Below, one piece after another: positions 25,656-64,000 of a stretch of DNA of 64,000 nucleotides (the first letter of the stretch is position 1; the number at the start of each line of letters is the position of its first letter). Under the pieces are notes generated by a model. That model was not told where the DNA came from and did not search any database. It worked only from the letters and a program-made list of their open reading frames with translations. The position numbers were made by a program, and so were the translations under genes. Origin of the DNA: Diacronema lutheri (Eukaryota; Haptophyta; Pavlovophyceae; Pavlovales; Pavlovaceae); the NCBI GenBank assembly GCA_019448385.1, contig JAGTXO010000010.1, forward strand, positions 372,001 to 436,000. Direction: 5' to 3'.

Positions 25656-25734
25656 TGCGCATTCTGGACGAAAGCCGCGAGGGGATCCCCCGCAGTCTGT
25701 GCAGTCACACGTTCAACCGAGAGCGAACCAAGCG

Positions 25735-31715: not shown

Positions 31716-31753
<38 letters not shown>

Positions 31754-42400: not shown

Positions 42401-42439
42401 TCTGTGCTTCGCCTGAGACTCTGACTGGCACTTCTTTCG

Positions 42440-44222: not shown

Positions 44223-44538
44223 CTGCGGCGCGCGGCGTGGCCTCGCGTGCCGTCACGAAGCCGCCTGCGCGCACTGCGGAGGCGGCGAGCGCGACGAGGG
44301 CGGGCGCGGACGAGGTGCTGAGCGGCGTCACGTACGCGCCCTCGCTCGCCGAGCTCGACGCCGCGGCGCTGACGATGCGCGCGGCGTACCACACCGACCG
44401 CCCCTGAGACGATGCGCGGCGCCCGCGGAGGACTGGTCCGTTGGCGCGCAAACCGTGGGCGAAAGGGCGCGAAGCCAACGGCCGTCCGCGCACGTTCAAA
44501 CGCGCGCATACGGGTGGCATCCTCCCACCTTCGGCGCC
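44223..44538. other. Non-coding stretch between the decayed gene and the palindrome
   Basis: A short plus-strand frame (from an ATG at 44204, about 67 codons) is present but has no recognisable feature; otherwise nothing is seen. Confidence 0.4.
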
Positions 44539-44845
44539 GCTTTCTAAAAGGGTGTAGGGTGTAGGGTGTAGGATGCAAAACAAGCCCTCCCCACATTTGG
44601 GCCCGACGTCATTCCTTCTTCGAAGCCGTGACGTTACTCACATACGAGTACCTTTACTTAGTGTAGGATGTATCTATTCTCTAGGTATTTGCATAGTGTA
44701 GGGTGTAGGATAAGTACGGTTATGAAAGTCCCATAGGGGGGAGAAGGAATGACGCTGTGACGAAAGAAGGAATGACGTCGGGCCCAAATGTGGGGAGGGC
44801 TTGTTTTGCATCCTACACCCTACGCCCTACACCCTTTTAGAAAGC
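44539..44845 (+). mobile_element. Non-autonomous TIR element (MITE-like), copy A
   Basis: The ~80 bp terminal inverted repeats begin GCTTTCTAAAAGGGTGTAGG and contain ATGCAAAACAAGCCCTCCCC and GGCCCGACGTCATTCCTTCT. The interior is AT-richer than the genome, with repeats of GTGTAGGAT and an asymmetric core (CGAAGCCGTGACGTTACTCA). No ORF. Both ends point to a cut-and-paste DNA transposon derivative; the target-site duplication is not certain. Confidence 0.8.
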
Positions 44846-45090
44846 GGCGGCGCCTCGGAGCATGGCGGCTCGACAGCATGGCGCCTCGACAGCATGGCGT
44901 CGTCCAGCGTGGCGTCCAGGATGGCGACTGCGCCCGGGCCGTGACGCCGCGACGTCGTTCGGCTGCGTCACGGAGGAGCGCCATCCGTGCGCCACGGAGG
45001 AGCGGCAGGACCACGACGCGGCGTGACGCTGGACGACGCCATGCTGTATAGGCGCCATGCTGTCGAGCCGCCATGCTCTGAGGCGCCGCC
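44846..45090. repeat. Inner palindromic spacer between the two TIR elements
   Basis: The arms, about 65-70 bp, start GGCGGCGCCTCGGAGCATGG on the left; the right arm is its reverse complement with a few changes (GACGACGCCATGCTGT, CGCCATGCTCTGAGGCGCCG). The loop of about 105 bp is less symmetric. The sequence just right of copy B repeats the arm start (GGCGGCGCCTCAGAGCATGG), so the arm predates or moves with the TIR element. Confidence 0.8.
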
Positions 45091-45396
45091 GCTTTTCAAA
45101 AGGGTGTAGGGTGTAGGGTGTAGGATGCAAAACAAGCCCTCCCCACATCTGGGCCCGACGTCATTCCTTCTTTCGTCACAGCGTCATTCCTTCACTCCCT
45201 GTAGGACTTTCGTAACCGTACTTATCCTACACCCTACACTATGCAAATACTTAGAGAATAGATACATCCTACACTAAGTAAAAGTACTCGTATGTGAGTA
45301 ACGTCACGGCTTCGAAGAAGGAATGACGTCGGGCCCAAATGTGGGGAGGGCTTGTTTTGCATCCTACACCCTACACCCTACACCCTTTTAGAAAGC
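45091..45396 (-). mobile_element. Non-autonomous TIR element (MITE-like), copy B, inverted relative to A
   Basis: Reverse complement of copy A over its full length with a handful of substitutions, shown by the core TGAGTAACGTCACGGCTTCG lying at its right end. A, spacer and B together form one ~860 bp inverted repeat. Confidence 0.85.
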
Positions 45397-45499
45397 GGCG
45401 GCGCCTCAGAGCATGGCGCCCGCCCGCTCGAGCCGGACCTCCGCGCAGCCGGACTCGCCCCGCCCCGGGCTGCTCTGGCTGGGCGACGTCGTGCGCGCC

Positions 45500-45985
45500 T
45501 CAGAACGCCGCGCTCGCCACGCGCACGTAGCCCTCGTCCGGGTCCGGCTCGGGCGCCGCGTCGCGCACCGAGCGCGACGCGGCCTCGACGCCCGGCGTTT
45601 CGGCACGCGAGGCGACGGATGCCTCGTCCGGCCGGCCCCACGGCAGCTGCAGCTCGAGCTGGCGCTGGATGATGCGCGGCGTCGCCACGCGCCCGTGCTG
45701 CACCTCGCGACGTCGCGCGCGCACGTAGAGCACGATCGCCACCGAGCCGCTGAGGCCCATCATCGCGCCGAGCAGCACCGAGATTGTGGTCTCATTGTCT
45801 GCTTGGGCGCGAACGGAAAACGCGCGAAGGGTGGCGACGAAGATCGTTGGGTTGGGTTGGGCCACCGGCTCCCGAGGATTGCTTGTGGCGCTCGACTGAC
45901 CGTTGGCCCAGCTTTTTTTTTTCTCGAACCTACTGTGGAGCCGCCTGCAGCGTGATCTCCCGCGCACAACGACCATGGCCGCCAT
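45500..45985 (-). CDS. Possible last exon of a single-pass membrane protein
   Basis: Minus-strand frame with TTISVLLGAMMGLSGSVAIVLYV, cited as TTISVLLGAMMGLSGS and VAIVLYV, a membrane helix followed by a basic stop-transfer RARRREVQ. A polar cytoplasmic tail ends DEGYVRVASAAF. An extracellular-looking ADNET site precedes the helix. It resembles the C terminus of a receptor-like protein whose upstream exons are missing; the region upstream is occupied by the helicase gene. It is either a host-gene remnant cut off by the insertion or a chance frame. Confidence 0.3.
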   Translation of the reverse strand: MAAMVVVRGRSRCRRLHSRFEKKKSWANGQSSATSNPREPVAQPNPTIFVATLRAFSVRAQADNETTISVLLGAMMGLSGSVAIVLYVRARRREVQHGRVATPRIIQRQLELQLPWGRPDEASVASRAETPGVEAASRSVRDAAPEPDPDEGYVRVASAAF

Positions 45986-48350
45986 CGACCTGCGCGCCTT
46001 CGACGCGGCGCTCGTCAACTGCGAGATCGTGAGCACGCGGCCGGTCAAGCCGAGCGAGCAGGCGCGCACGGTCGACAAGCTGACCTACGGGCCGTCGCGC
46101 CGCGCGCTCGCCTTCGTCTCGCCGCCCTGCGTCGTCGACTGGCCCGAGCTCACGGGCGACGGCAACTTTGGCACCATGTACGGGCCGACGGACGTCGACA
46201 AGGCGGCGTACACGGCCGGCGTGACCGACAAGGAGCTGCCGATTGAAGGCGCGCCGCTCGCGCAGATGGACGCCTACTTTGGCGCCCTGCGCGCCATCGA
46301 CGATCAGCGCGTCGAGACGGTGCACGCGCGCCAGAAGGAGCTGCTCAACACGCGCGGCCTCTCGAAGGAGGAGGTGCGCGGCAAGCTCTCGCCCGCCGTC
46401 AAGCCCAAGTACGAGGACGACACGCTCGCGCACACGCGGCTGAACATGTCGACGCGCACGTTCACGTGGGCGGGCTCCGAGCGCGTCGTGCCGCTCGTCG
46501 ACGCGCGGCGCGAACCGGTCGACGAGATCCGGCACGAGGACGTCTGCGCCATCGCCACGCAGCTCGACCGCGTCTACACGGGGCTCACGGGCTCGATGTT
46601 TGGCACCAAGTGGAACGTGTGCGGGGTCATGCTCCTGAAGCGCGCCGAGCAGCGGCCGCAGCCCGGCTCGGACGCCTTCGCCTCGTACGGCGTGCCCGCC
46701 TGGGCCGACACGTTCGACTCCACGGGGCTGTACGTGCCCGACGAGCGCGAGCGCGCGGCGGCGCTCGCGGCGGTGGCCGGTCTGCGCACGGCGCGCGCGC
46801 CGGCCGGGCCGGGCGGGCGCGAGCTCGCGCGCGCGCAGGGCTACCATCGCGCCGAGCGGGCTGCGAGCGCGGCGGCGGCGCGCGCGGCGATGGCCGAGGG
46901 CGGCCAGCAGTGCGCGCTCCACGGCGCGGTCGTCAAATCGGCGCTGCGCGGCGTGGGCAACCGGCTGCATCTTTGCGACGCGCCGGGCGGAACGGGCAAG
47001 ACGTTCGTCGAGCGCGCCATTATCGCCGCCGTGCGCGCGGATGGGCACGCGGTCGTCGTGGGCGCGTCCTCGGGCGTCGCCGCCACGCTGCTGCCCGACG
47101 GCCGCACCTTCCACTTGACCTTCAAGGTGCCCGGCGGTGCCGACTCCGACGGGCAAGCCGTTCAATGGCGTGCCGCGCTCCGAGCGCGGGCGCTCCCTGG
47201 CCGCCGCGGCGGCTGGTCGTGTGGGACGAGGCGCCGATGCAGACGCGGTGCCACCTCGACTCGCCTGATCGGTGTTTGCGCGACGTGACGGGCGTCGACG
47301 AGCGCTTCGGCGGCGAGACGCTGCTGCTCGCCGGCGACTTTCGCCAGTGCTTGCCGGTGGTGCGGCGCGGCTCGCGCGCGCAGATCGTGCGCTCCTGCCT
47401 CAAGTACTCGGCGCCGTGGCAGCACGATCGGCAGCACGCCTTGGTCGAGAACGTTCGCGCCTCGAGCGCGGCGCGCGACACGGGCGACGCGCTCGGCGCG
47501 GGCGAGTGGGCGGAGCTGCTGCGCAGCCCCGGCGACGGCGCCGTTCCCGCGGCGGTGCCGGCGGCCGGGGCCATGCCCGGCGCATTCCCGCTCGATCCCG
47601 TGCAGCTGCCCGAGGCCGTCGGCGGCGTCCCCATCCGCGTGGGCTCGGCCTACCCGACGGAGCTCGTGACGACTTTGTCCACGGCGCGACGTGTTGGACC
47701 GACGACGGCTCGCTGTGCGACCGCGCGGTGCTCTGCGCCAAGCAGACGGACGTGGCGCGGATCAACTGGCTGGCGATCGGCCGCTTCCCGGGCGCGGCGG
47801 CGAGGTGCGCGTCGGCGGACGAGCTGGCGCGACGACGGGGCGGGCAAGCAGATTGCGCGGGCGTCGGTCGAATTCCTCGACTCGCTCGAGCACGCGCAGA
47901 TGCCGCACCGCGTCCTCGACCTGAAGCCCGGGATGGTGGTGATGCTGCCGCGCAACCTCTCGCCCGGCGAGGGGCTGTGCGGCGGCACGCGGCTGATCGT
48001 GCGCGGCGTGCGCGCCGGCGGCCGGCTGCTCGAGTGCGCACGCCCCGGCGCGGCCGCCGGGCGCGACAGCACCGTGCTCGTCGCGCGTGTCGACCACCAC
48101 CCGCCCGACGACGGCACGTTCGCGCTTGTGCGGATGCGCCGCCAGTTCCCCGGTGCGGCCGGCGTAACGAGGCGCAGGGGCAAGCGCTCGGGTGCGCGGG
48201 CGTGTGGCTCGCCGAGCCGTGCTTCACGCACGGCCAGCTCCACGTGGCCGCTTCGCGCGTCGGGCACACGTCGCGCGTCCGCTTTGCGCTCGGCGCGGAC
48301 CTCGTGACGCGCAGCGTCGTCTTCAAAGAGGTGCTCCGCGCGGTCAGCGG
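45975..48350 (+). mobile_element. Pif1/Helitron-type SF1 helicase gene with unusual N-terminal domain, broken
   Basis: It starts at ATG 45975 in a good context (GACCATGG). The first ~280 residues (AFVSPPCVVDWPELTGDGNF, GPTDVDKAAYTAGVTDKEL, later WNVCGVMLLKR) form a compact domain. It recalls ssDNA-binding proteins of large DNA viruses in layout only. The helicase follows, with motif I GGTGKTF, Ia VVVGASSGVAAT, WDEAPM (motif II), LLAGDFRQCLPVV (III), KPGMVVMLPRNLSPGEGLCGGTRLIV and the terminal NEAQGQALG, FTHGQLHVAASRVG motifs of Pif1 and Helitron helicases. Motifs are spread over more than one frame, so the copy looks broken, with about three breaks. No Rep/HUH nuclease was found next to it. 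Known role: 5'-3' DNA unwinding during replication or transposition. Confidence 0.72.
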
Positions 48351-50126
48351 TGGCGAGGCGGCGGCGGCGGCGCTCGCCGCGGCCGCCGTCGCCGCCGCGC
48401 GCGAATGCGCGGCGGCGGCGCGCGGTGGCGGCGAGCGCGGCGGGCGCGGCGCGGACGGCGCGCGCGGCGCCGGCGGCGGGCGGCGCGCTGGCGGCGGGCG
48501 CGCCGCCGGCGCGCGGTGCTGGCCAGCACCCGCCGGCGCGACGCCCGCCGCGCCGCTCGCGCCGACGCGCAGCCGGCGGATGCTCGCCAGCACCGCGCGC
48601 CGCGCGACCGGCCCGCGTACCTGCGCGCCCTTCGCGGGCGCGCAGGGCGGCGCCAATGCGGCCGGCGTGCAGGGGCCTCAAGCCGGCGCGCCGCCCGCCG
48701 CCGCGTGGGTCGCCGCCACGCGCGTGCCGTCGGCGCTGCCGCCGCCCGGCGTCGCGCTCGCGCCGCAGCCGCCGCCGCCGCCGTCGCCGCCGCCTGCCGC
48801 CTGCCGGCAAGCTGGGCAAGCGCGCAGAGGCGGCGACGGCGGTGCGCGATCCGGCGAGCAGGCGGCGCGCCGCCGAGCCGGGGGCGGGCTCCGTGGGCGA
48901 CGAGGCTCGCCCGCCACTGGCACCACTCGCGCGCCGAGCGCGCACAACGCGCGGGAGCCCGCTGCGTGGCCGGACGAAGCTGCGGTCACGGCTGAGGGGC
49001 GGATCCGACACGCCGTGGCCGTACAGCACATCGAGCAGGGAGGCCGTCACATCGACATGAATTTAAGTGCCACATCGAGCACGTGATACCCTGCGGACTG
49101 GCGCCACTCCTGCCGCCCCTCGCGCCGAGCCCGCGGCGCGCGCCGGGCAGTTGTTGCGCGCGCACGCAGCACGCAGCGCGCAGACAAGACGTGAAAAATG
49201 TGTCGCGGCGAGGACGAGGGCGAGCCCCGGCGGCTCGGCGAGGCGTCGCATCTCACACACACAGTGGCGCACTCCGAACGGCCCGGTCCACATTGCGCCC
49301 CCCCCCCCCCCCCCCCCCCCCCCCGCGCGCGCGGCTAGCCGACGCGCCGGCCTCTTGCTCGCGGCTGTAGACCCGGGCGCTGAGGGCCTCGTACATGCCG
49401 GGTGGCCGAGGGACAGAAGCCCGTCTCGGTCACGCTCGTGCAGCGCAAGCGCACTGCGCACGCGCGGCACGCGACCGCGCGCGAGACGGGCCACCGTGCA
49501 GCGCATCGGCCCCCGTCGGCGCCGGGTGCGCCGGGCGGCCGCGCCCTATGCGGCGCGCGGCGTGGAGCACCGAGGGCGCACGGTGCTGGAGGCCAACGAG
49601 CGGGTCAGCTTCACGCGCGCGCACACGCATGTGCGCACGCAGACGCGGCACGTGCACAACCCGCCCGCGCGGCTGAGCGCGCGGGCGGCGCGGCGACCTC
49701 AACTGGCGCGCGTGCACGCTCGCGGCGGCGCGGTTCGAGCGCGTGCATGCGACCGGGCGCGGGTTCCGGCCCGAGCAGCTGCTCGTTGTGTGCGGCAGCT
49801 GGCTGCACCGGTCGCGCGGCGGCGGCCGTGTGCGAGGCAAGCCGCCCGCGCTCGGTGAGGGGCTTGCTTTGGGCGCTGCGCCGGCTCGACATCGCGACGA
49901 CCCTCGTACCCAAGCTGCGGAGATCCAACGGATGCTCGCAGCTGCGCGAGGTGAAGCGGAAGTGCGCCCGCTCCGAGCGCGACGCCCGCCGCGGACGCCG
50001 ACGGCGCGCCGCTGGCCCGGCCGCGGCTGGCGGGCCGCGGCCGGTGCGGCGCGGCACCGGCACGCTGCAGCCGTACGTACGCGCGCAGAGCGCCGGGCGG
50101 TCGCAGCGCGTGGCGGGTGGCGCGGC
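48351..50126. other. Low-complexity region downstream of the helicase
   Basis: An Ala/Gly/Arg-rich and Pro-rich coding-like stretch continues to about 49050. A C run (about 49298-49324) and short His/Arg-rich frames (49560-49700) follow. No domain could be supported on either strand. Confidence 0.5.
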
Positions 50127-50640
50127 GCGATGCCCGCGGCGGCAAGCGTGACTCAGCGCGGCAACGTCGGGAGTGGTGCAGGCGGCGTTGAAGCGAACGA
50201 GAAGGTGGACGCGGCGGCGATGAGCGGCCACGGCCACACCGGCGCGTCACGGCCGCCGCCTCCGTCGCCTCGCGCGCGGAAGCGCGCGCGGCCGGCGCGA
50301 CGGACGACGGCAGGGGCGTCGGCCGTGGCGGGCGTCGTGGGCGCGCCGCGCGCCAGCCACGCCGGCCTAGCCGGGCCGTCGTCGGCGTCGTCGTCGTCGG
50401 CGGCCTCGTCGTCGTCGGCCGGAACGGCGGCGCACTCGGCGCGAAGGAGGCCGACGGCAGCGCCGGCGACGCGCGCGTGTTGCCGCCTGCCGACAAGCTC
50501 GTCGCGCCGTGCGAGCGCGGTGTCGCCGTGTCGCCCTCGGCGGGCGACGTGGCGTGCGGCGCACGCGACGTCGACGCGGCCGCTGCCGCACGGCGGAGCA
50601 GGCGTGGCTGGTGCGGGGGCGGGGGGGGGGGGGGGGGGGG
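50127..50640 (+). repeat. Diverged partial duplicate of the start of the giant gene, ending in a poly-G run
   Basis: From ATG 50129 the frame reads MPAAASVTQRGNVGSGAGG and later ARPARRTTAGASAVAGVVG. It parallels MPMAASVTKGPGVGDGAGS and AAGAADDGGAAVVAGVEG of the gene that starts ~0.8 kb further right. DNA identity is visibly well below 90 percent. It ends in a G run (about 50611-50640). Confidence 0.6.
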
Positions 50641-50812
50641 GTTGGTTGGGGGGTCGGTCGATAAGGTCGCTGGGGACAATCTCCCATCAGAAACTCCCGC
50701 TTAAACAGCCGCTAGGGCGGCCGCGTCCGGCACGCCCAGCGCCGCGACGAGCGCGATGCATTCCACGAGCGCAGTGGTACATCGCTCGCCGTGGGGCGCA
50801 CCACGGGCCTTC

Positions 50813-50820
50813 TATAAATT
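50813..50820 (+). promoter_or_regulatory. TATA-like box upstream of the giant gene
   Basis: TATAAATT in an otherwise very GC-rich region, 107 bp before the first convincing ATG (50927) on the same strand. Confidence 0.4.
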
Positions 50821-50926
50821 TATGAGGCCAAGAGCGACGTCTTATCACACTTTCAAAAGCAGCGGATCAAAAGGCGTCTGCCAATCCGCCCGCGAGGACG
50901 ACCGACGCGGACGACCAGCACGCGCG

Positions 50927-52561
50927 ATGGCGCAGGAGACGACCGGCTCGATGCCCATGGCGGCAAGCGTGACCAAGGGCCCCGGCGTCGGAGATGGCGC
51001 AGGTAGCGACGAAGCGATCAAGGTGGAGGAAACGGCGAAGACGAGCGGCGACGGCTGCACCGGCACGCCTCCTCTGCGCCCGGCCGCGCGCGCGGCCGGC
51101 GCGGCGGACGACGGAGGGGCGGCGGTCGTGGCGGGCGTCGAGGGCGAGCGCGACGCACTCGCCAAGACGGGTGCCGGCGGCTGCGACGACGACGCTCGCG
51201 AGCCGCTGTCGGCCGGCAAGCCCGGCGCACTCGCCGCCGCGGCGACCGTCGGGGGTCTCGGCGAGCTCGTCGGCAGCCTATGCGCGTGGCTGGCGCACGG
51301 CGCGGCTGGTGGCGCCATCGCGGCCATCTCCCCCGGGACGGCCGCGCGCGGAGCAAACGGCACGCCGCAGCGCGCCGAGCCGCCGGCCGCCGGCGATCCC
51401 GTCGCTCCGCACGCGTGCGTCGCCGCTGCGGCGCCCTTGGCGGGCAGCGCGGCGGCGCCGTCGTCGGCCGCGCGCGACGCGCAGCGCGGCGTCGCGGGAT
51501 TCGACGCGGCCGCGCACGCGCACGCGCGCGACGGCAGGCGGGCGGCACGGCGGATGCGCAAGCAAGAGGGGGCGGTGCACAGGGCCTTCCGCAAGTCCCT
51601 CTGGCGCGACGCGACGTTTGTCGAGTTCGTTGAGAAGCTGCGCCCCGACGGCAGCGCGCAGCTGCTCGCGCGCGAGCCCACGCGGCACGCGGCGGCGGTG
51701 CTGTGCGAGCTCGCGCGCGGCCGCGACGGCGCGAGCGGCGCGGCCGGGCTGCTGCACGAGATGAGAGCCGCCGATGCGCGCGCGCGCGAGGCCGCCAAAG
51801 CGGCGGAGGCAGCGCGGCTTGCGCACGGGACGCTGCGCATCGTGGCAACCGTGGCGCTGGGCGGTGCGGTCTTCGCCGGCATGTCAGCGCTGGTCGTTGC
51901 TTGCGCGGCGCGCACGGCGACCGGTGCGCTTTTTGGGGCCCGCCGCCCGCGGGCGGCCGCGCGCGGAGCCGACGACGCGCTCGGCACGCTGCAGCGCGCC
52001 GAGCCGCCGCCCGCCGACAAGGGCAAGCGCAGGCGCGCCAGAGCCAACGACGACCCCGTCGACGCGGCGCGCAAGGCCGTGGGCAAGGCGGAGGGCAACT
52101 GCCGCAAGGCAGCCCGCCGGCTGCACCTCGCTGCACTGGGCGAGGAGGAGGCGCAGCAGCGCGTGCTCGACGCCGAGGCGGCGGAGCAGCTGGCGCGCTC
52201 GCGCGAGCCGGCCGGCGGCTGGGTAGGCAGCGCGCGCGCGCGCGCGCGCCCCGCCGCGCGCGCGCCCGTCGATTGGCGTGCGCGCAGCGCAGAACGGCGC
52301 GCCAGCTCCGTCACCTGCGCGCCGCCGCGCCCGTGCCCCTCGCGCGCAGGGGCGCCCTGCGGACTTGCGGCTGCAACAGGCGCACTTTGGCATTCGCGAA
52401 GATGCCGACGCGGATGTGCGCCGCGCGCACGAGGCGCTGCGCCGGGCGAGACAGGGTGTGGCGTGCGCCAAGGCCAACGTGCGGCAGATGGAGGCGGCGT
52501 TGCTCAACGCGACGCGCTGCGCCACCGCGGTGCTCGCGCCGCGTGGCGTGCCGGAGGGTGA
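50927..52561 (+). CDS. First ORF of the giant Ala-rich gene: coiled coils and a membrane helix
   Basis: It starts MAQETTGSMPMAASVTKGPG. A disordered Ala/Gly region precedes a hydrophobic stretch (LGELVGSLCAWLAHGAAGGA). A helical unit follows (RRMRKQEGAVHRAFRKSLWR, FVEFVEKLRPDG, AVLCELARGRDG), then a strong membrane helix (IVATVALGGAVFAGMSALVV, near residue 310) and a coiled coil (AARKAVGKAEGNCRKAARRL). From about 52225 the frame turns into Arg-rich shadow sequence, while coding character moves to the overlapping ORF. Whether splicing links the two is not settled here. No homologue recognised. Confidence 0.5.
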   Translation: MAQETTGSMPMAASVTKGPGVGDGAGSDEAIKVEETAKTSGDGCTGTPPLRPAARAAGAADDGGAAVVAGVEGERDALAKTGAGGCDDDAREPLSAGKPGALAAAATVGGLGELVGSLCAWLAHGAAGGAIAAISPGTAARGANGTPQRAEPPAAGDPVAPHACVAAAAPLAGSAAAPSSAARDAQRGVAGFDAAAHAHARDGRRAARRMRKQEGAVHRAFRKSLWRDATFVEFVEKLRPDGSAQLLAREPTRHAAAVLCELARGRDGASGAAGLLHEMRAADARAREAAKAAEAARLAHGTLRIVATVALGGAVFAGMSALVVACAARTATGALFGARRPRAAARGADDALGTLQRAEPPPADKGKRRRARANDDPVDAARKAVGKAEGNCRKAARRLHLAALGEEEAQQRVLDAEAAEQLARSREPAGGWVGSARARARPAARAPVDWRARSAERRASSVTCAPPRPCPSRAGAPCGLAAATGALWHSRRCRRGCAPRARGAAPGETGCGVRQGQRAADGGGVAQRDALRHRGARAAWRAGG

Positions 52562-55500
52562 CGAGCAGGCCGCGGCGAGAGAGCAGGCGGCGCTGGACCG
52601 GGAGGCGCCGCCGGCCGCGGAACGCGCGGCGCCGACGGCGCGCTCGCCCTCGGAGCTGCCGTCCGAGTGGGGCCCGCCAGCGGTCGGCCGGCGCCCGACG
52701 CCGCGTGCACTGTCGCACGCCGCGGGGTGCGGGGACGACAACCCGTTTGCGCCGCTCGCAACCGTCAGCGGTGATTGGTCGCCCACGCCGAGCTTGCGCC
52801 CGCCGTCCTCGCCGCCGCGGCAGCCGCCGTCCGACCGCCGCAGCGCGCAGCGTCGCAGCGCGCGCGCGCGGCCGCCGAGGCCGACCGTTTCACCCGAGGA
52901 AGCGCTCGCAGCCGAGCGCCAGGCGCGCGCGCTGTCGGAGCAGGCGGAGCAGAGGCGCGCCAAAAAGGCCGCCGCCAAGGCCGCGCGCCGCGCCGCGCGC
53001 GCCGCCGACAAGCGGACGGCGCGCGTCGTCCACGCGTGCGTAAGCGCCGCCTTGCAGCGCGTCTGCACGAGCGTCGCCACGGGCACGCCGCTCGCCGTGC
53101 TCCGCGAGCGCGCCGAGAGGCCGCGCGCGCCGAAGGCCGCGCCCGCGCCACCACGCCGCGCAGCGGACGGCGGCCGCGCGCTCCGCCACGCGCGCCGTGC
53201 GGCCGATGCGGCGGCGGAGCGCGAGGCGGCGGTGGCGGCCGACGCCGACGAGCGGTTCGAGCGGCAGCCCTCCGCCGCCCGGTTCGACGGCGGCGATGGC
53301 GGCGGAGGCGGCCACGTCGAGGCGAGCGCGCGACCGCGCGCCGGCGAGGCCGGCGAGGCTGGCGCGCACGGCGCGCCTGGCGCAGCGGGGCCCCCGGCGG
53401 CGTCGCTCGCGTCGCGCAGCCCGTGTGATGCGCGGCGCACGGCACGCCTCCCGCACGCACGCGCCGCAGCCACCTACGCAGGCAACGGCGGCTGGGGTGG
53501 CAACGTCGGCGGCGACGTGTGCGGCGATTGTTTCGGCGGCGGCGGCGTCCGTCGCGACGCCTGCGGCGGCGGCGACGCCACCTGCGGCTGCGGCGATGGC
53601 GGCGTCGGTGCTGGCGCTGGCGAGGCCCCTGCACACGGTGCGCCGGCGCGCGCGACGGCGTCGCGCTTGCTGCGCTTGCTCGGCGCGCCACGCGCCGTGC
53701 TCGGTGCGATGGCGCACGCCGCGGCCGTGTTGGCGCGCGGCGTGGCCGCAGCCGTCGCTGGCGTGCGCGCCGCCGCGCGCGCCGTGCGGCGCGCGCGCCG
53801 CCGAGCGCCTTGCGCGCGCCGCACGGCTGCGCGGCGCGCTCGCAGCCCGCCGATGCGCGACGTCGACGGCGCCCTGCGGCCCTCACCGTCCTGGCCGCGC
53901 ACACGCCTCGTCTGCGGCCGGCGCCTCGCGCCTCTGCGCCGCGCGGGCGCGCGCCCGCCGCCCGCACACGCCGCGCCGAGTTCCCGCGCGCGCGCTGCGC
54001 AACCCGACAGCGACGCGCCGGCGTGCGCGCCGCGGCGCTCGGCGCCTGTCGGTGCGCCGCCGCGCGCGCGTGGCCTGTGCGCGGCGCGCGCACGGCGCGT
54101 CCTCGACGTCGCCGGCCGCGCGGCGCGGAGCGCGCGCCTCGGCGCGCGCATCACGCGCCAGCGCACGCCGGGCCCGTCATCGGAGCCCTGCACGGCCGAG
54201 AGCGGCGACGGCGCGGGCGCCGGCGGCATCGGCGCGGCGGCGCCTGGCGCGGCGACGATGCGCGCCACCGGCGCGCGCGCAGCGCGCGCTGCGGCGGCGG
54301 CGGTCGGTGGCGCCTCGCGTCTCGCGCGCCGCGCGATGGCAAGCGCCGCCGCCGCTGCCACCTCCATAGCCGGCGCTGCCGCCTCCACCGTCGCCGCCGC
54401 CGCCGTTGCCATCGGCGCGGCCGTCACGTCACCGGCGTTCGCCGCGGCGCGTGGCATGGCGGCCGCATGCGTCGCTGCCTGCGCCCGCCCCACCGCCGCG
54501 CAGGCGGCCGCGTCGCGCGCGCTCGGCGCGCTCTTCGTGCTCGTCGACGCGGCCGACGCGGCGGGCGACAGCGACGCCGCGCTCGGCGCGCTCGCGGCCG
54601 CGGTCGACGCGACGGAGCTGCGCCCGCCGCCGGCCTTTTGGCGCGCGGGCCGCGCCGCGGCGTACGCACCGCGTCCGCCGCCCCTCAACTCGGCGCGGCC
54701 GCGCTACAACCGGCGCGCGCGCGCACCTAGCCCTCCCGTCGCGGCCGCGCCGCGCAATCTCGAGCGCGCGGTGCGCGAGCTCACGCGCGCCGCGCGCGCT
54801 GAGCGCGAGCGCGCGCCGGCGCCGCGCGGCGCGCGCGGCGGCGTGCTCCACGCGCTGCGCGCGTCGCTCCCCGTGCACGCGCGCGTTGCGCTCGGCACGG
54901 ACGCGGAGCTGCGCGCGGACATTGCCGCGTTCGCGCGCGCGCGCCGCGAGCTGCACAGCTTCACCGACGCCGAGGTGGCGGCGCTCGCGCGCCCGGACGG
55001 GCCGCCGCTGCCCGTGCGGCTCGCGTGCACGGCGGTCGCGCGCGCGCGCGGCGTGACCGTGCTGCTCGACATCGTGCCGCGCGGCGGCGGCGCACCCGAG
55101 CGGCTCGTGTGCCGCGCCCGTCGCCGCGGCGCCGCCACGCGCACGCCACGGCCGACAGCCGCCGTTATCGCGCGCGCGCCTTGCATAGCGGCGCGCGTTG
55201 GCCACACTGAGCCGGCGCGCGCGTGCGCGGGCGGACCGATCGGGGTCGTGCGCCTCCGTTCAGCGCGCCGCCGTTCTTGGCGTGGGGCGCGGCTCGACGT
55301 GCACACCCGCGAGCGGCTGGCCACACCGGTGCCATGCCACGTCGTGGCCTGCGCCGCCGCCTCGGCCATCGGCGCGTGCGTCGCTCGCGCGCGGCTTGGG
55401 CTTGCACGGCTGGCGCGCGCGTGGCCCTGCGCCTCCGCTCCACTAGCCACTGCTGCTGTCGCCTTCGCGCCTGCCGCCGACGGTGTTTTCCCCGCCGCAC

Positions 55501-57475
55501 TAGCCGCTCCTGCATCCGCCTTCGCGCGTGCCGCCGATTTTCCCGCCCCACTAGTTGCTCCTGCATTCGCCTCCGCGCCTGCCACCACCGGCGTTTTCCC
55601 CGCGCCACTAGCCGCTCCCGCTGTCGCGTCCGCGCCTGCCGCCGCGGGCGTGTCTTCCGCCCCACTAGTCGCTGCCGCTGCCGCCCTCCAGGCCGCCTCC
55701 GACGGCGTTTTCCCCGCCCCACTAGTCGCTGCCGCTGCCGCCTTCCAGGCCGCCTCCGACGCCTTTTCCCCCGCTCCACTAGCCGCTGCCGCTGCCGCCC
55801 TCCAGGCCGCCTCCGACGGCGTTTTCCCCGCTCCACTAGCCGCTGCCGCTGCCGCCCTCCAGGCCGCCTCCGACAGCGTTTTCCCCGCCCCACTAGTTGC
55901 TCCTGCATTCGCCTCCGCGCCTGCCACCATCGGCGTTTTCCCCGCGCCACTAGCCGCTCCCGCTGTCGCGTCCGCGCCTGCCGCCGCGGGCGTGTCTTCC
56001 GCCCCACTAGCCGCTCCTGCATCCGCCTTCGCGCCTGCCGCCGATTTTCCCGCCCCACTAGTTGCTCCTGCATTCGCCTCCGCGCCTGCCACCACCGGCG
56101 TTTTCCCCGCGCCACTAGCCGCTGCCGCTGCCGCCCTCCAGGCCGCCTCCGACGGCGTTTTCCCCGCCCCACTAGTCGCTGCCGCTGCCGCCCTCCAGGC
56201 CGCCTCCGACGGCGTTTTCCCCGCCCCACTAGTCGCTGCCGCTGCCGCCCTCCAGGCCGCCTCCGACGCCTTTTGCCCCGCTCCACTAGCCGCTGCCGCT
56301 GCCGCCCTCCAGGCCGCCTCCGACGGCGTTTTCCCCGCGCCACTAGCCGCTGCCGCTGCCGCGTCCGCGCCCGCCGCCGCGGGCGCGTCTTCCGCCCCAC
56401 CAGCCATCGCCGCCGCGCCCGCCGCCAACGCGCGCACCGCCAACGTGCCCGTTGCCAACGAGGCTACCGCCACCGAACCAGCCGCCCTTGAGCTTCCCCT
56501 CCAACCCGCCAACTCGGCGCTGCTTGCGTGGGCGGGCGACGCGGCTGCGCGCCGGCTGGCCGCCGCCGCCGCGAGCGCCGGCCTCCCGCAGGCAGAGGTG
56601 GAGCGCATCGCCAGCGGCGACATGCTCGCCTCAACCGTCGACGCGTGCTGCGAGGTCGTGCTGCGCGTGCACGGGCAGGCCGGCGGCGGGCATGTCTGCC
56701 ACGTGCCGCTCGCCGCGCAACCCGCGGTGTTTCAGGACGACGCCGAGCGCGCCGCGCTGCTGCACCGCCTGCGCAGCGAGGCGACAACGCAGGCTGTCAT
56801 CGGCGTGTGGAGCCCGTCGGACGAGCGCGGCGGCGCGGGCGGTGACGACGGCGCGCAGCTCGCCTCCGGCCATTTCACCGCGTTGCGCCTTGTGCGCGTC
56901 GCGCGCGCGGGCGAGCATCGCTACGACGCGGTGCTCGTCGACACGCTCGCGTCGCCCTGCAGGCAGGCGCTCATGCTCGCCAAGGCGATAACTGCCACGC
57001 TGCACGCGGCGGGTCTCGACATTTCGCGCGTGCGCCGCGCGCTGCTGCTCAACGAGGCGGCGCAGCGTGGCGCGACGTGCGGCCTCGCGATAGTGGGCGC
57101 GCTCAACGACGCGCTCGCCGCGGCGGGCTGCTCGTCCGCGCCGCGCACGTTCAGCGTGGCGGACATGTACGCTGTCGGCGAGCGCCTCCGCGTCGCGCTG
57201 ACCGGCGCGGCCAGCGATCGTGCGCCGGGCGGCGTCTGCGCGGTCACGAGCGCGGTGCGCGGCGGGGGCAGCCCCGATGGCGCCGAAACGCCGCCGCAGA
57301 CGCGCGGCGCCAAGGCCGCCGCTGGCGTCACCGCCGCCGCCACCGCCGCCGCCACGCCGCCGCCGCCCGCGCTGGGCGCCGCCGCCGCCGCCACCGCCGC
57401 CGCCGCCGCTGCTGCCGCCGCCGTGGCCGCGCCGCCACCGCCGCCACCGCCGCCGCCGGCCGGCGACGCGGGCGA

Positions 57476-57551
<76 letters not shown>

Positions 57552-60500
57552 GCCGCGCGCACGTTCTTGAAGCTCGCGCCCAGGGCGCGCGCGGCCGCCT
57601 CGGCGCGTGAGGCGTTGCGCGCCGCGTGTGCGCGCGCGGACGCGGCGGCGTCGTCACACGCGTCGGCGCCGCACGCGCCCGCCGGTGCGCGCCGCCGGCG
57701 GCGCGCGGGCGCAGGCGAGCTGGCGCTCGCGGCTGCGCGCGCGCTCGCCTCGACGGAGCACGGCGATTTGACGGACGACGCGCTCGAGGCCGCCGTCGAG
57801 CAGGAGCTGGGCGACGAGCGCGGCCAACTGCTGCTGTGCACGCGGGGCGCAGCGGCGCAAAGGCCCGCGCTTTGCCGGCTCCTGAAGCACGCGTGCGCGT
57901 CGGCGCGCGCGGCGAAGCGCGCGCAATTCACGGTGTTCGTCGTGCGCGCGGCCACGCGCGGCGAGCGGGGGGGCGCCGCCGCGAGGCGCGTGGACTCGGT
58001 GGTCGAGCTGTCGTGCGCGCTGCACGAGAAGGCGGGCGCGCTCGGCGGCCTCCAGCGCGTCTGTGTGCGTGGCTTCGCCCTCGAGCGCCGCCGGACACTC
58101 GACGCTGGCGCCGAGGCCGGCGCGTCCGCCATCGGCCAGGACGAGCAGGTCGAGGCAGAGGCGGGCGAGGCGTGCGTCGCCGGCGTGACGATGGCCAAGC
58201 AGCTGCGTCAGTTTGCCGAGCAAGCTGCCCGCGACGACGTGCTCTTCCACGTCGCCGTGTCCGAGGCCGACGCCCACGCCCGGCTGGCGCGCGTTGCGGG
58301 TGACGATGTCGGCGCGTACAGCGTCGTGCTCGCAGTCGCCGGGCTCGTCTGGCTGGCCAAGGCCGACGAGGTTGCGCCGGCGGCCGCCCAGCCCGCCGCC
58401 GTGCCGCCCGCCGCCCCGCCTGCTGCCGCCACGTCCGCCGACGCCGAGCGCGACGCCTCGCCTTCCGACCGCCTGCGCGCGCTGACGCTCGCCGTGCGAG
58501 TCGCGCTCGCGCGCGGCGTGCTGCGCCACCTCCTCGCCGACGCGTCGCCGGGCGCGTCCGCGACCGCTGGCGGTAGTTGCGCGACGCCCGTCGAGGCGGC
58601 CACGTCCGCCGCCGCGCCGCCCGCCACGGGCGTCGTGACGAGTGGCGTTGCGGCGGGCGCTGTGGCGGCCGCACCGGCTGCTGCGGGCGGTGCGATGGCG
58701 GGTGCATCGCCCATCACGCGGCCGGCGAAGCGCGCGCGGCGCACGCTCACCGCCGCTCCAGCCGCCTCGGCCGTTGCGGCCGCTGGAGGCGCACGCGCGG
58801 GCGCACGCGGCGCGGCCGGCGCGCCTCGCGCGCGCGCCGCGCGCGCGCCGGCCGAGTACGTCTGGCTTGCCATCGCGCGCCGGATGCTGGCGGCGCGACA
58901 CGCGGCGGCCGCGGGCGGCGACTTTGTCGCGTCGTGCGTCGCCGCGATGCAGGCCGAGTACGGCGACGGCTGTGCCGTCGTCGTCGGCGACGCGCCTGAT
59001 GACGCCTTGGTCGAGGCTGCGGCGGCGGCGCTGCTCGAGGGCAAGCACGCGGCGGTGAGCCTCGGCTGCGTCGACCGGCCGGCGGTGCTCGTCGTGCAGC
59101 GCGCCGTGGACGCGCCCACGTCGCGCGTGCACGGGTGGTGCGCGCACGCGGCGGGCGCCGCCGAGTTTGACGAGGGCGCCGCGCACGGCGTGTTCAACGC
59201 GATCGTCGAGCGCGCGTGGGCGCTGCGTCCGGACCCGGCCGACGGCAGCCCGCCGCCCACGCGCACGTGGGAGGTCGAGCAAATCGCTGGCGACGCGCCC
59301 GACCAGGCGGGCGTGGCCGCGCTGCGCGTGCTCTACGCGCTCGTCGCGGCGCACGGCCGCTACCGCTCGGCCGCCGCGCTCTTTGGCGCGCTCGCGCAGC
59401 TGCACGCGCCCGACGCCGCCGGCGCGCGCGCGGAGGTCGTCGCGGCGGCGTGCGCGGTGCCGCCCGGCGCGCGGCCGGGCGCCGCGCCGGCGGCCGCGCG
59501 GGACGACGCGAGGGAGCGCGCATGGGACGGCGCTCAGATCGCCGCGCTCGCCGTCGGCGCGGACGCTGCGCGCAGGCGTGTCGCGCCCGTGCGCGCGCTC
59601 GTCGACGCGCTCGGCACGCCACCGACCTCGGCGATCACGGGCGGGCCGGCGGTCCGGCTCGCGGGCGCGGGCGACGGCGGCCACGGTGCACGGTGGGTGG
59701 GCGGGCAGGCGGCGACGCCCGCCGAGCAGCTGCCGAGGGAGCTGCTGCGCGCCTACCACGAGGCGGTGCTGTGCGTCACGCCCGGCAGCCTCCAGCTCGG
59801 CCCGGCGGCGCTCGACGCGGTCACGCGGCCGCGCGAAAACGACACGCTGGAAGGCCTCCTCGCGCGCGTCAGCTGGCAGTGCGGCGCGAGGGCGAGCACG
59901 TGCGCCATGCTCGCCACGTTTTCCGAGCAGGCGGGCACCGGCTCGCGCGTCGCGCTCAAGGCCCTCCGCACGAGCTCCGACCTGGCCGGGCTGACGGCGG
60001 CTGCGGTCGGGCAGCAGGCGCCGCAGACGCCGCCGCCGCCGCTTCTCGTGATGCTCGGCCGCTGCCCCAGCCCGCTCGTCGGCGGCGGCCTCTTCCCGCC
60101 CGACCGCGCGACGGGCGAGCCGGCGGTGCACGCGGCGACGTCCGAGCTCGCCGTCGAGCTGCTGCGCGACGCGCGCGCGCTGGCCGGCACGGACGGGCGG
60201 CTCGTCGTGCTGTGCCTCGAGGCGTCCAACCCGCTCTGGTTCTGCCCCAAGGTGCGCGAGCTCGAGCTGCCGCGGACGCGGTCGGACGGCGTGCGCGCGT
60301 CCGGCTGCACCTGCCCTGCGACGTGCAGCGATGCGCGCGGCGCGGCGGGTGGCGCTGCCCGCGGCGCATCGACGCGGCCGGCGGCGCGCGCGATCAACAA
60401 GGCGGTGCTCGACCACTTCGTCGCGCTTTTCGGCCGCGAGGGCTTCGCGACCTTTGAGTTTGCGGGCGGCGGCGAGGCGAGCTGGCTGTGCGACAGCGCG

Positions 60501-61706
60501 GCCGGCACGACGACCGTCGCGGCGTGCGCGTCGCTGCCGCCGCGCATGGGCGATGGGCAGCTGGCCATCCGGCGGCACACGCTCGGCACGGGCGCCGACG
60601 CGCCGGCGCACGCCGTCGTCTCGCTCCGCGTCGCGCACGTGAGCCACGCCATCCGCCGCGCGGCGGACGACGGCGGCGCGCGCGCCGAGCGGATGGCGCG
60701 CGCCGCGCGCGCGTTCTGCGATGTGGCGGCCGCGCTGCGCGTCGACGCGATCCTGGCGGAGGTGCCCGAGGACCGCCCGACGGGCACGCCCTTCCTTGGC
60801 GGGCTGCTCAAATGTTGGGACAAACGCAACGGGAGCTGGACGGCGCCAGCCACGCTCGCGCTCGGAGACGTGCGCGAGGTGGCCAAGCGGACGGCCGACG
60901 CAGCGGCCGGCCGAGCGGACGAGGTCCCTGCGGCTGGCCGTCCGCAGGTCGCGGCGCGCGCGTGCGCTGGCGCGATTGGCGGCGGCGCGGGCGCGGCGGG
61001 CGCCTCGGACGCTGCGCCGCGTGCACTGGCGGGCGCGTCGGGTGCGCGCACGGACGGCGGCCCTGCCGACGCACCGCGCCAGCTGGAGAGCCGCTACGGC
61101 GAGGCGAGCAAGCTCGACCTACCCCAAGATTCCACTACGGGCCGCGTCCTCGACGCTCGCGAGGCCCAGGACCGCGCGCGCGTGCCTGCTGCGCCCGACG
61201 GCACAGCGCTGCGCCGCGTGCTCGACGCCGTCGGCGCGGGCGCGCCCGCGCAGCGCAGCCCGCGCTGGCACGACGAGCGATGGGAGGAGGTCACGGGCAG
61301 CAAGGTTGGCGACGTCGTGAACGACAACGCCGGCGTCGCGCACGAGACGCTCACCGACGAGTACGTGCACCGGCGGCGGCGCGAGGTGCGGACCAAGGCG
61401 ACGACCGCGGGCATCCTCGGCGAGGCCGTCGCGCTGCGCAAGCTGGCGGCCGCGTACGGCATCACCGTCGTGTGCAACCTGCCGATGGTGCGTGCGGACC
61501 CGCACGACAAGAGCGCGCCGTTCGCCTTCTCGCCGGACGGGCTCGCCATCCTCCCCGAAAACAACGAGCAGGTCCTCGTCGAGGTGAAGACGCTCACCAA
61601 GGCGGGCGCCACGGCGCACGAGGACGGGCCGCCGCAGCCGCACCGCGATCAGCTGCAGCTCGGCATGCACGTCCTCGGCGTGAGCAAAGCGCTCTACGTG
61701 CAGTAA
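52278..61706 (+). CDS. Giant ORF with Ulp1-like protease, inactive Ulp1-like and YqaJ nuclease domains
   Basis: 3142 codons, the longest frame in the window. From about 52350: a coiled coil (EALRRARQGVACAKANVRQM), Arg/Ala-rich linkers with Cys/Gly clusters near 53500, and a folded region at 54530-55110 (LFVLVDAADAAGDSDAALGA; ARRELHSFTDAEVAAL). A 57 bp repeat tract follows. A Ulp1/C48-like domain (56500-57210) has His in SGHFTALRL, Asp in AVLVDTLAS, and Gln and Cys in AAQRGATCGL. After a poly-Ala run comes a second Ulp1-like domain (58850-59370) whose QAGVAALRVLYAL lacks the Cys. An unknown domain lies at 59700-60850. At the end is a YqaJ/lambda-exonuclease fold (61258-61706): SPRWHDERWEEVTGSK, GILGEAVALRKL, SPDGLAI and VEVKT. 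It looks like a mobile-element polyprotein; whether still whole is doubtful. Confidence 0.7.
55443..56405 (+). repeat. 57 bp coding tandem repeat, about 17 copies, two subtypes
   Basis: Each unit contains CCACTAG(T/C)CGCTGCCGCTG and GGCGTTTTCCCCGC and codes for 19 residues. Type A is APLVAAAAALQAASDGVFP and type B is APLVAPAFASAPATTGVFP. A block of B-type units occurs twice and is separated by A-type runs, giving a higher-order pattern. One or two units are shortened in frame. Confidence 0.9.
57300..57552 (+). repeat. (GCC)n tract encoding poly-Ala with Pro blocks
   Basis: GCC runs, pure from about 57476 to 57548, join the first Ulp1-like domain to the next helical region. A linker role is likely. 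Confidence 0.9.
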
Positions 61707-64000
61707 CTCAGGCACGAGGACCGGATCGTCGTGCACGTCGTGACGCGCGGCGCCGGCTGGCTTGCATTCGCGCAGCCGAGGGTGCAGGCCTTCTGGGCGC
61801 GCGTCGTCGAGCGGCGCGCGCGGCTCGAGCGCGCGCGCGCCGACCACCCGGCTGCGAGCCGGCGGCACCGGCGGCAGCAGACGCCGGCCGGGCCGCCGCT
61901 CGTGCTCGCGCTGGACGGGCGCATCCCCGCCGCGCGCGCCGCCGCGCTGCACGCCGTCGCGCACGGCACCGCGAGCGCGGCGGCGGTGACGGCGGCGGCG
62001 GCGACGGGCGACGCGACGGCGTTGCAAGACGCGATCGCGGCGCTGCGCGCGCCCGTCGGCAATGCGGCGATCGACAGCGCAGCGCGTGCGGAGCGCGCGG
62101 CCGTCGAGCGGGCGATCGCGTACCTCGGGCAGCCGGCAGGCGACGCCGCCGCCCGCGGCACGGCCGAGGCGGCCGAGGAGGAGAGGACGGTCGACGCCGA
62201 CATCTGCGCGTTGCTGCACCAGCTCGGCGCGAGCGTGGCGCACGTGCACGTCGAGGACGCGGATTGCGTCACGCGTGAGCATTGGGGCGGGGCGGTGCTC
62301 GCTGCAGCGGGCGACCCGTCGAGCGCCCCCGCCATTTCGAGCGTCATCGTCGCGCACATCGTGCGCCTCGCCGGCTTTGGCGTCGAGCTCCCGCAGTCGA
62401 TTCGCGTCGCCCCCAGCACGGCCGACTGGCACGAGGGCTGGCTCGACGTGCAGTGCGTGCTGCTGCGCACGCGCCGGCGCGGGCGGCGCGACGACGACTT
62501 TGTGGCCGTCGTCAGGCGCGGTGGGCGCTGGTTTGCGTGCGAGCCCGGCCGCGCGCGGCGGCTGCAGTGGCGGTCGGTCCTGCGCCGCGCGCGCGGCGGC
62601 GTCGACGGGACCGGCGAGGAGGCGTTCGCGGTCGTCTACGTGCGGCGCGGCGACGCGGCCGGCGACGCGGCTGGCGACGCGCAGGCCGAACGGGCGCGCG
62701 GCGGGCGCGCGCGCAGGCGCACGCGCGGCGGCACGCGCAAGCGCAAGCGCGGCGCCTCCGCCGGGCTCGAGGCGGCCGCGCCCGCCGGCGCGCCGGCGGG
62801 CGCTGCTCACCGCCCGCCCGCCAGGCGTGCCACGGTCGCCGCGCGCACCACGCGCTCTGTGACCGACGCGCGGCACTCGGCGCCTGCCGCCACGGTTGCA
62901 CCTGTCTTCGACTGGCGCGCCGGCCGCCCGCCCCCTGCCGCCGCCGCCGCCGCCAAGCGCGGCCAGGCGCTCGAGCCGGGGCAGTTCGCGCGGCCGCGTG
63001 GGCGCGCGCCATGGGGCAAGGTCTGGGACAGAGTCTCGGGTGCGTGGGCGGACAAGCCGACTGGTGCTGCCGTCGCCGCCGCGCCGCCGCCGCTGCCGCC
63101 CGCCGCCGCGCCGCCGCCCGCCGCCGCGCCGCCGCCCACCGCCGCGCCGCCGCCCGCCGCCGCGCCGCCGCCCGCCGTCGCGCCGCCGCCCGCCGCCGCG
63201 CCGCCGCCGCCGCCGCCACCGGCGGCGCTCGGCCGCCGGCAGCACGTCGGCGCGGGCGGCAGCGCGGCGGGCCGGCGGCTCGCGGCCATCGCACGGCGGC
63301 AGCGCGGCGTGCGCGCGCCGCCGCCCGCCGCGCGCTTCCTCGCCACGCTGCCGCCACCGCCACGCGACGGCCTCGCGCGCACGAGCAAGCAGGCGCGCGC
63401 GAGGCGCAACGCGGACGGACGGCCGGCGCACGCGCGCGCGGCCAACGCGCGCGCCTTCTACCGCGGCGTGGAGCTCGGCGTGCACGCGACGCGCGCCATC
63501 GTCGACGCGCGCCACGCCGACCTGCCGCAGGCCGTCTTCGTGGCGGAGGCGCGGGCGATCGTCGCGCGCTCCGCCGGCGGCGGCGCGCTGCTCGCGCCGG
63601 ACGACGTGCGCGACCTGTGCGACGCGCAGACGGACGCCGATCGCGCTGCGATCTGGGCGTCGGTGGGCGCGCACGAGGCGACGCGCATCTTCGCGCTCGT
63701 CACGCGCAACGCGAGCTTGGCGGGCGCGGCGCTGCTCGTGCTGCACACGCCGGCGGGCGCGCCGGCGCGCGCGCTCGGGCTCCTGGCGACGCGCTCGCGC
63801 GCGCCGTCGACGGGCGCGCCGCGCGACGCGCACAGGGCGCTGGTGCAGCGGTTGGACGTGCTGATGGACGCGATCGCCGCGGCGCGAGGCGCGTCGCCGC
63901 TCGAGCTCGAGCTCGCGCTCGCGCCCGAGCCGCAGAGCGCGTGCAACGCGCGTGCGGCCGCGCTGCTCTGCCTGCAGGCCGTCGCGGACGCGAGCGGCCG
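61707..64000 (+). CDS. Coding-like sequence following the YqaJ ORF, open at the right edge
   Basis: Plus-strand sequence continues with protein-like composition. A helical part is at about 61740-62280 (VQAFWARVVERRARLERARA), then a folded region with LGASVAHVHVEDADCVTREH and WHEGWLDVQCVLLRTRRRGR. A Lys/Arg-rich stretch (62690-62770) and a Pro/Ala repeat (63070-63220) follow. Then comes an Arg/Ala-rich helical part from 63360 to the edge (FYRGVELGVHATRAIVDARH). I recognise no domain. It belongs with the giant gene by strand and composition; its end lies outside the window. Confidence 0.45.

Follow-up and report, generated by a model that had tools for sequence, protein, structure and literature searches.

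A recent, high-copy giant DNA element in the haptophyte Diacronema lutheri with predicted Pif1-type helicase, YqaJ/RecE-type exonuclease and Fanzor genes

Introduction

What kind of entity would carry a Pif1-type helicase beside a giant protein with Ulp1-like protease and YqaJ-type nuclease segments, and by what means would it spread? The question is raised by a stretch of 64,000 nucleotides from Diacronema lutheri (G000:C86:372001-436000, hereafter the window), for which a preliminary description had proposed a large mobile element with these three parts. Here we follow up that proposal in the assembled genome, of which 43,492,796 bases on 103 contigs were searched. We are highly confident that the window holds one copy of a recent, high-copy giant DNA element that codes for a Pif1-type helicase, a ubiquitin-specific protease (USP, in its longer form) and a giant protein in which Ulp1-like segments are combined with a YqaJ/RecE-type exonuclease and a chromodomain, and which leads into a Fanzor. 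In the available part of its text, the D. lutheri genome paper gives 22.9% of the genome as repetitive and names long terminal repeat and long interspersed elements, and that part holds no word starting with "transpos" (PMC8379373).

Results

Five other internal copies of the element align with the window from base 42,533/42,534 onward, with unrelated sequence to the left of that boundary, and the window copy and four others have right tips that coincide within a few bases. The window copy accordingly measures 26.0 kb, with its right tip (C86:440,531) lying 4,531 bases outside the window, so that the extent of 45,975-64,000 first assigned to it fell short on both sides. Genome-wide, pattern counts with at most one mismatch returned 214 left tips (107+107) and 225 right tips (120+105), and reversed tip patterns, serving as a control, gave 0 matches. 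With more than 200 tips at sharp and repeated boundaries, further genomic copies exist and the proposed mobile element is supported, and an origin of these genes as unrelated single-copy host genes is ruled out. A genome search with the Pfam PIF1 profile scored a match for every one of the best 150 of 414 candidates, most of them with one identical score. Since six copies diverge by only 0.1-0.5% over 6.4 kb, the family, at some 200 copies, is a young one.

Pairing of tips took in 87 left and 99 right tips out of 100 listed for each side, with the window copy not included, and yielded 62 tip-to-tip pairs, one right tip on contig C27 being paired with two left tips. Fifty-six of these pairs belong to classes near 21.5, 26, 29 and 31 kb (12 at 21.4-21.6 kb, 7 at 26.0-26.9 kb, 8 at 29.1-29.4 kb and 29 at 30.5-31.1 kb); two more measure 32.2-32.5 kb and four are odd (12.6, 14.6, 35.9 and 37.8 kb). 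Multiplying the mean pair length of 28.1 kb by 214 copies gives roughly 6.0 Mb, or about 14% of the assembly, under the assumption that each tip stands for a full copy, which need not hold.

Several contigs (C1, C5, C6, C10 and C12 at their starts; C3, C32 and C43 at their ends) break within 4-6 bases of a right tip. A telomere-linked element was considered and rejected, as the two contig starts at right tips that were inspected (C5 and C80) carry no telomere repeat. We read such contig starts as places where the assembly broke because most reads were shorter than the repeat, and the element seems to limit the contiguity of the published assembly. In 2-kb steps, G+C content is 74-81% at window positions 46,000-64,000 and 65-73% in the rest of the window.

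The order of genes can be followed in a 31-kb copy on contig C5. Its left end, about 2 kb with weak coding signal, holds a large imperfect palindrome (arms of about 378 bases in this copy; the corresponding self-matches are present in other left-end copies as well) and is followed by the Pif1-type helicase, the USP gene, a frame of 1,345 codons whose start carries an Ulp1-like H-D-Q-C series, and a frame of 4,050 codons with a second Ulp1-like segment and the YqaJ/RecE-type nuclease, the chromodomain lying before the end of the latter frame or in the next. The USP gene (Pfam UCH, expectation value (E) 4.3e-8, over cut-off, with Cys- and His-box-like sequence by eye) is absent from the window copy, which belongs to the 26-kb subfamily; a search of the PDB with the USP frame gave no meaningful match. 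The inner 1,601 bases of the segment that marks this subfamily recur at 99% identity or more over the whole query in 15 places including the window (among the best 40 of 274 candidates), and the segment is probably another repeat family that was picked up. Parts of window positions 49,200-50,800 have relatives of 73-80% identity at more than 20 other places. The window copy is thus internally rearranged, and it has a stop of its own, which is missing from the four other copies compared at that position (C5, C80, C11 and C4); the earlier impression of partial decay was a sound one.

The helicase was first described as a gene with the full Pif1/Helitron motif order. The motifs of an SF1B Pif1-type helicase are indeed present, the second frame matching PIF1 at E 1.8e-24 and Pif1_2B at E 6.2e-13, but in the window copy they are spread over three frames. 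Both Walker motifs were found at 11 of the 12 loci examined, and the distance from motif II to motif VI is 1,010 nucleotides (out of frame) in nine of 11 copies, with one copy each at 1,011 (in frame) and 1,033. An AlphaFold model of the helicase N-terminus was too low in predicted local distance difference test score (pLDDT 35) for use. When the C5 copy was compared with the 21.4-kb copy on contig C4, neither the helicase block nor the USP block displayed a clear third-position excess.

The giant frame of the window, announced as more than 3,000 codons long, has 3,159 from stop to stop, with G+C fractions of 0.82, 0.68 and 0.88 at the three codon positions, and the matching frame of the C4 copy reaches 4,089 codons. 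Within it, the H-D-Q-C series of the putative C48-type protease is spaced 23/41/5, which is Ulp1-like when set against what we take to be the reference spacing. The pattern, composed after the segment had been seen, matches once, whereas shuffled sequence gives 0.03 matches on average. When the C5 copy is set against the C4 copy, 75-80% identical here, the H, D, Q and C are all kept, and the ratio of altering to silent substitution (dN/dS) over the block is 0.41 (silent changes 30.5 over 176.5 sites, altering changes 35.5 over 468.5), which supports the prediction of a coded, once-selected protein. No Ulp1 catalytic domain was matched in Pfam at an E limit of 5, a search in which HMMER filters drop most weak matches, and the AlphaFold model of the segment (pLDDT 42) was too poor to use. 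As such, the protease first proposed here remains a candidate by its motifs and one conserved block, but not by a domain profile.

The nuclease matches the PHROG family of RecE-like exonucleases (E 7.9e-10, with no curated cut-off), the NCBIfam lambda-exonuclease family (E 3.7e-5, at 23.9 bits below the cut-off of 68.05) and Pfam YqaJ, the last below cut-off both with the long frame (E 0.022) and with a short query (E 6.5e-4, 20.4 versus 22 bits). An SPDG at 61,527 and an EVK at 61,572 form the D...E-x-K series that we take to be the catalytic motif of YqaJ/lambda exonucleases, in agreement with the assignment originally made; the PDB gave no meaningful match to the YqaJ part.

A core of helicase and exonuclease, as the preliminary description had it, is not supported: the same strand also codes for a chromodomain and a Fanzor just beyond the window, in addition to the USP of the 31-kb copy. 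YqaJ domain and chromodomain share a single open frame of 1,851 codons at one locus (L025), and both lie within a 3,112-codon stretch of the C4 frame, where YqaJ scores below cut-off. From the chromodomain frame to the Fanzor frame there is one fixed frame change, of the same sequence in seven of eight copies; the exact seed was not found at L025, where the two frames are offset alike. Our reading of this change is a short GT-AG intron, a second gene being possible.

By its sequence, the protein near the right end is a Fanzor, that is, a predicted nuclease of the TnpB/Cas12f type. As a single sequence it scores 27.2 bits against PF07282 (cut-off 26.3) and 12.1 of the 100 bits set for NCBIfam TnpB. 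Fanzors use a shifted catalytic Glu, and an alignment of the element's Fanzor with two other local families (27 and 23% identity) keeps invariant the first Asp, a Glu that precedes TS/TT, the Cys residues and RDxNxARN. A profile made from these three families placed the Spizellomyces punctatus Fanzor (8gkh, E 9.3e-8) first in the PDB, followed by IS605 OrfB-type proteins from E 4.2e-5, Cas12f and then the Parasitella Fanzor (E 3.4e-3), with 18 distinct sequences at E of at most 1; two of its three rows come from outside the element and helped it. Searched alone, neither the element's Fanzor nor one other local Fanzor had a meaningful match in the PDB. The element's Fanzor links to the other families at E of about 1e-8 for one and 0.002 for the other (a single locus each). 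Its motif, D-X184-TSxxC-X13-C-X25-C-X2-C-X8-RD, falls within D-X(125,275)-[TS][TS]XX-C4 zinc finger-X(5,50)-RD and is consistent with the Fanzor/TnpB motif given in the available part of an earlier survey (PMC3627910). The frame is open in five internal copies of the eight examined.

A patch in the Fanzor frame (L016:3071-3164) has eleven variable sites in 94 bases, eight of which separate L019 and L021 from the other three copies, and is like a gene-conversion patch. A genome search with PF07282 gave 148 matches among the best 150 of 306 candidates; among the matches listed, the top 31 exceed the 31.3-31.5 bits usual for the element family. Six top matches that were inspected (L097-L100, L017:4173-4907 and L022:1269-2216) represent two other Fanzor families; at least one other top match, C29:418955, has the spacing to a right tip that is typical of the element's own Fanzor and may belong to the element. 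The genome holds at least two further Fanzor families, and matches scoring as L098 does list open frames of up to 1,779 codons. Members of these other families lie near the element at two places, 10 kb beyond the right side of the window copy and 2 kb from the left side of a copy on contig C36.

The alignment of copies called for at the outset located the ends of the element to within a few bases, and with them the junctions. On the left, a C (less often G or T) is followed by TATATA, then C or G (rarely T or A) and GGCGCGG; on the right, CCATC meets TATAC and the next base is mostly G. The tips are thus TATATAN at the left and CCATCTATAC at the right, with a short TATA(TA)C repeat at both. 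Over 87 listed left tips, the final base is C in 46, G in 38, T in 2 and A in 1. These counts are partly biased, the left-tip search pattern having required TATAN and some junction queries having contained tip letters. Free of that bias, TA precedes TATA in 22 of 22 left flanks and in all five other internal copies (TATATA), and TATAC stands in all of 18 right flanks as well as in four of five copies with the window copy counted, the exception being L019 with TAACG. Beyond the TATA the tips share no terminal inverted repeats, and no clear target duplication was seen at the junctions compared. Searches with joined flanks returned only partly similar repeats and no clean empty site; short flanks matched against the element gave no sign of nested insertion. 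A flip-flop of the tips was ruled out, as the bases around TATATA are uncoupled and CTATATAG is common.

By eye, a short abundant repeat ending in CGTTAGT abuts the left tip in about eight of 37 left flanks (L049, L050, L053 and L054 among them, and the window at 42,430-42,533), which is perhaps a shared target preference. GTTAGT is kept in three such flanks and the next base is C, whereas copies of the repeat inspected elsewhere continue with A, once with G; because the base after GTTAGT differs in this way, there is a hint that TATATA belongs to the element and not to the target.

No enzyme that would make insertions at new places was found in the frames scanned. In the three sense frames of the C5 copy, read from 1.06 kb into the element with stops as X, Pfam gave no match at E of at most 0.1 to a recombinase, HUH/Rep, Helitron_like_N, DDE transposase, polymerase, capsid or packaging protein, in line with what had been reported of the window. 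Because C5 has a broken Fanzor frame, the same scan did not pick up the Fanzor; a transposase whose frame is broken could have escaped it likewise. Profile scans of the frames of the internal copies gave no recombinase, Rep, DDE, polymerase or capsid match either.

These observations bear on three other origins. One is a giant Helitron-like, rolling-circle element with a captured Fanzor, its HUH Rep being too diverged or residing in an unsampled master copy. The Pif1-type motif set would fit, as would the want of terminal inverted repeats and of clear target duplications and the T or A that precedes the left C/G/T-TATATA junction in 26 of 32 cases in a G+C-rich genome; furthermore, Fanzor1 is known from algal Helitron2 elements (PMC3627910, available part). 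The missing Rep and Helitron_like_N, in a copy with broken frames, speak against it, as do tips that differ from the TC...CTRR pattern of Helitrons and an exact-pattern search that saw no copies joined head to tail within 30 bases, and we consider it unlikely, though not negligible. Head-to-tail circles were ruled out on the same lack of joined tandem copies, which also counts against a second origin, a site-specific recombinase element (Crypton-like, or with another tyrosine or serine recombinase) that would circularise through the TATA(TA)C at both tips. The constancy of those tips (C or G before TATATAN in 22 of 22, the last TATA being required by the search pattern; TATAC in 18 of 18) and the want of a target duplication beyond the TATA repeat would suit such an element, but no recombinase, tyrosine recombinases included, was matched in the scanned sense frames, and its probability appears low to us.

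Large DNA viruses commonly carry YqaJ nucleases, Pif1 helicases and Ulp1/adenain-like proteases, and an endogenous virus or Polinton-like element would account for that combination. In the available part of the survey, Fanzors too occur in large double-stranded DNA viruses (PMC3627910). Against this, the C5 sense frames gave no capsid, type B polymerase or packaging match, the tips lack a long inverted repeat, and of the 89 and 8 stretches matched in two scans of IMG/VR (with the Fanzor and with the YqaJ part) none was confirmed as a relative; we regard a viral origin as very improbable.

Table 1. Coordinates of the element and its parts (window numbering, unless a locus is named)
Feature	Position	Strand	Basis or remark
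Mobile element, part within the window	42,534-64,000	+	five other internal copies; coinciding right tips; genome-wide tip counts
Large imperfect palindrome	44,532-45,403		arms 44,532-44,910 and 45,026-45,403, 95-97% complementary; 115-base spacer
Pif1-type helicase, first frame	45,900-47,285	+	N-terminal part and Walker A (GGTGKT at 46,986); corresponding C5 frame, PIF1 E 1.9e-15
Pif1-type helicase, second frame	46,250-48,307	+	motifs II and III and 2B domain (47,219-47,948); Pfam
Pif1-type helicase, third frame	47,269-49,083	+	motif VI (THGQLHVA at 48,225)
Segment of about 2 kb marking the 26-kb subfamily	48,953-50,944	+	in place of about 7.7 kb (USP gene and start of giant gene) of the C5 copy
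Giant reading frame	52,227-61,703 (stop ends 61,706)	+	open reading frame; G+C by codon position
57-base tandem repeat in giant frame	55,435-56,379	+	sequence; 19 residues per unit
Ulp1-like (C48-type) cysteine protease segment	56,511-57,212	+	H/D/Q/C motif residues; dN/dS
YqaJ/lambda-exonuclease/RecE-type nuclease domain	61,257-61,703	+	profiles and motifs (SPDG, EVK, Q); stop truncates it near its end
In-frame stop	61,704-61,706	+	window copy only, of five copies compared
Continuation of giant frame past stop	61,707-64,000	+	leads to chromodomain, then Fanzor beyond the window
Chromodomain	L016:965-1117 (64,965-65,117)	+	Chromo E 9.2e-13
Fanzor	L016: first RuvC Asp 2,923, zinc-ribbon part to 3,672	+	PF07282 E 4.3e-6

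Window positions 20,877-30,219, L016:7113-10000 and L017:990-3700 hold a unit of roughly 3.1 kb in repeated form, with two frames (570 and 569 codons); the one frame searched had no Pfam match, and the unit also matches sequence on the right side of the element copy. Host genes elsewhere in the window are a ribonucleotide reductase large chain (3,093-6,128), a carnitine acyltransferase (16,291-18,744) and an FtsH-type protease (30,300-32,810).

Discussion

As for the manner in which so large an element reaches so many copies, we tentatively propose a TnpB/Fanzor-like cut followed by repair copying, a mechanism that we find plausible but short of probable. Pif1 helicases help break-induced replication, and RecE-type enzymes resect ends. 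We infer the steps that follow from the observed copies, ends, domains and gene order. An RNA that runs across the right tip and on into the flanking DNA would serve the Fanzor as its guide, and the Fanzor would cut an empty site bearing TATA; after resection of the cut ends by the YqaJ exonuclease, homologous repair would copy the element in. In copies where it works, or as supplied by the host, the helicase may aid the synthesis of long tracts, the chromodomain may hold the complex on chromatin, and the proteases may process the giant protein or strip ubiquitin or SUMO. That a Fanzor may act like TnpB, spreading by cut and copy, has been proposed (PMC10432273, available part). Taken as one account of identity and mechanism, this is the best explanation at hand, and we lean slightly towards its being right.

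Several observations weigh against this account. Repair copying at cut empty sites restores lost copies and does not alone explain some 200 insertion places. In 11 of 11 copies, Walker A and Walker B lie 230 nucleotides apart, which is not a multiple of three and puts them in different frames; the earlier suggestion of a replicative element using helicase and end-resecting exonuclease is left unsupported. Of the eight copies in which the Fanzor was examined, the two at contig ends (C5 and C80) have it in a broken frame, and the stretch from C4 stops partway through it. The predicted fold of the right-end RNA has only a slight advantage over shuffled sequence (z -1.8; 5 of 200 as good). Last, over the right 4.5 kb (chromodomain and Fanzor) of five near-identical copies there are 4 silent and 19 altering changes, where 27% silent would be expected by chance, and on these counts no selection between copies after insertion is seen.

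Another explanation is that the whole family is non-autonomous, with genes that are cargo, and that enzymes from other loci of the genome move it. The out-of-frame Walker motifs would fit such a family, no integrase was found in the frames scanned, and other Fanzor families are present in the genome; a giant frame of more than 4,000 codons that is open in two size classes, together with the dN/dS of 0.41 in one block, instead suggests recent use of the protein. We judge cargo status unlikely, to about the same degree as the Helitron-like origin.

A bolder form of the cut-and-repair account is also conceivable, namely a giant element free of any transposase that spreads as an RNA-guided homing machine, with the Fanzor as cutter, resection by YqaJ, Pif1 as repair helicase, and the chromodomain and the ubiquitin/SUMO proteases controlling chromatin and repair, and that has come to fill about one seventh of the genome. 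Because the C5 scan could miss a transposase in a broken frame, we give this form lower odds and hold it to be rather improbable, a shade less so than the recombinase element.

An element with this gene set was not found in the literature searched, the coverage of which was partial, so that an earlier description is possible. Among known systems, the Fanzor1-bearing eukaryotic transposons of Bao and Jurka (2013), some of which have neither terminal inverted repeats nor a known transposase, share with it the Fanzor motif, the zinc ribbon and the nature of a high-copy DNA element; unlike those transposons as described in the available part of that paper, at about 2 to 9 kb (PMC3627910), the element measures 21-31 kb and adds a helicase, two kinds of protease, a YqaJ nuclease and a chromodomain. 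In Auxenochlorella, an uncharacterised Fanzor-coding element is the most abundant repeat (PMC12633428, available part), likewise a Fanzor element abundant in an alga, but in a green alga rather than a haptophyte. With Helitron and Helitron2 it has in common the Pif1-type helicase, the Fanzor association and the lack of terminal inverted repeats, and it departs from them in its tips, its giant protein and the absence of a Rep among what was found. Its size of more than 20 kb and its large genes recall the giant transposons KDZ, EnSpm and Terminons, and the available parts of the giant-transposon texts contain 0 mentions of Fanzor, YqaJ or Ulp1 (PMC6431247, PMC12477816). Unlike DDE transposons with terminal inverted repeats, such as KDZ, it has no such repeats and no DDE match in the frames scanned. 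The RuvC-zinc-ribbon nuclease coded near the right end and the conserved short motif at the left tip are like those of IS200/IS605 elements with TnpB, from which it differs in being eukaryotic and without TnpA, and it is more than ten times larger than IS605. It further adds to the repeat content of the published D. lutheri genome. Our best reading is that of a new variant among Fanzor-bearing elements, one whose giant protein appears to unite the Fanzor with a chromodomain and a recombination exonuclease, and as a very young family of about 200 copies in a culturable aquaculture alga, it makes the role of Fanzors in eukaryotic elements testable.

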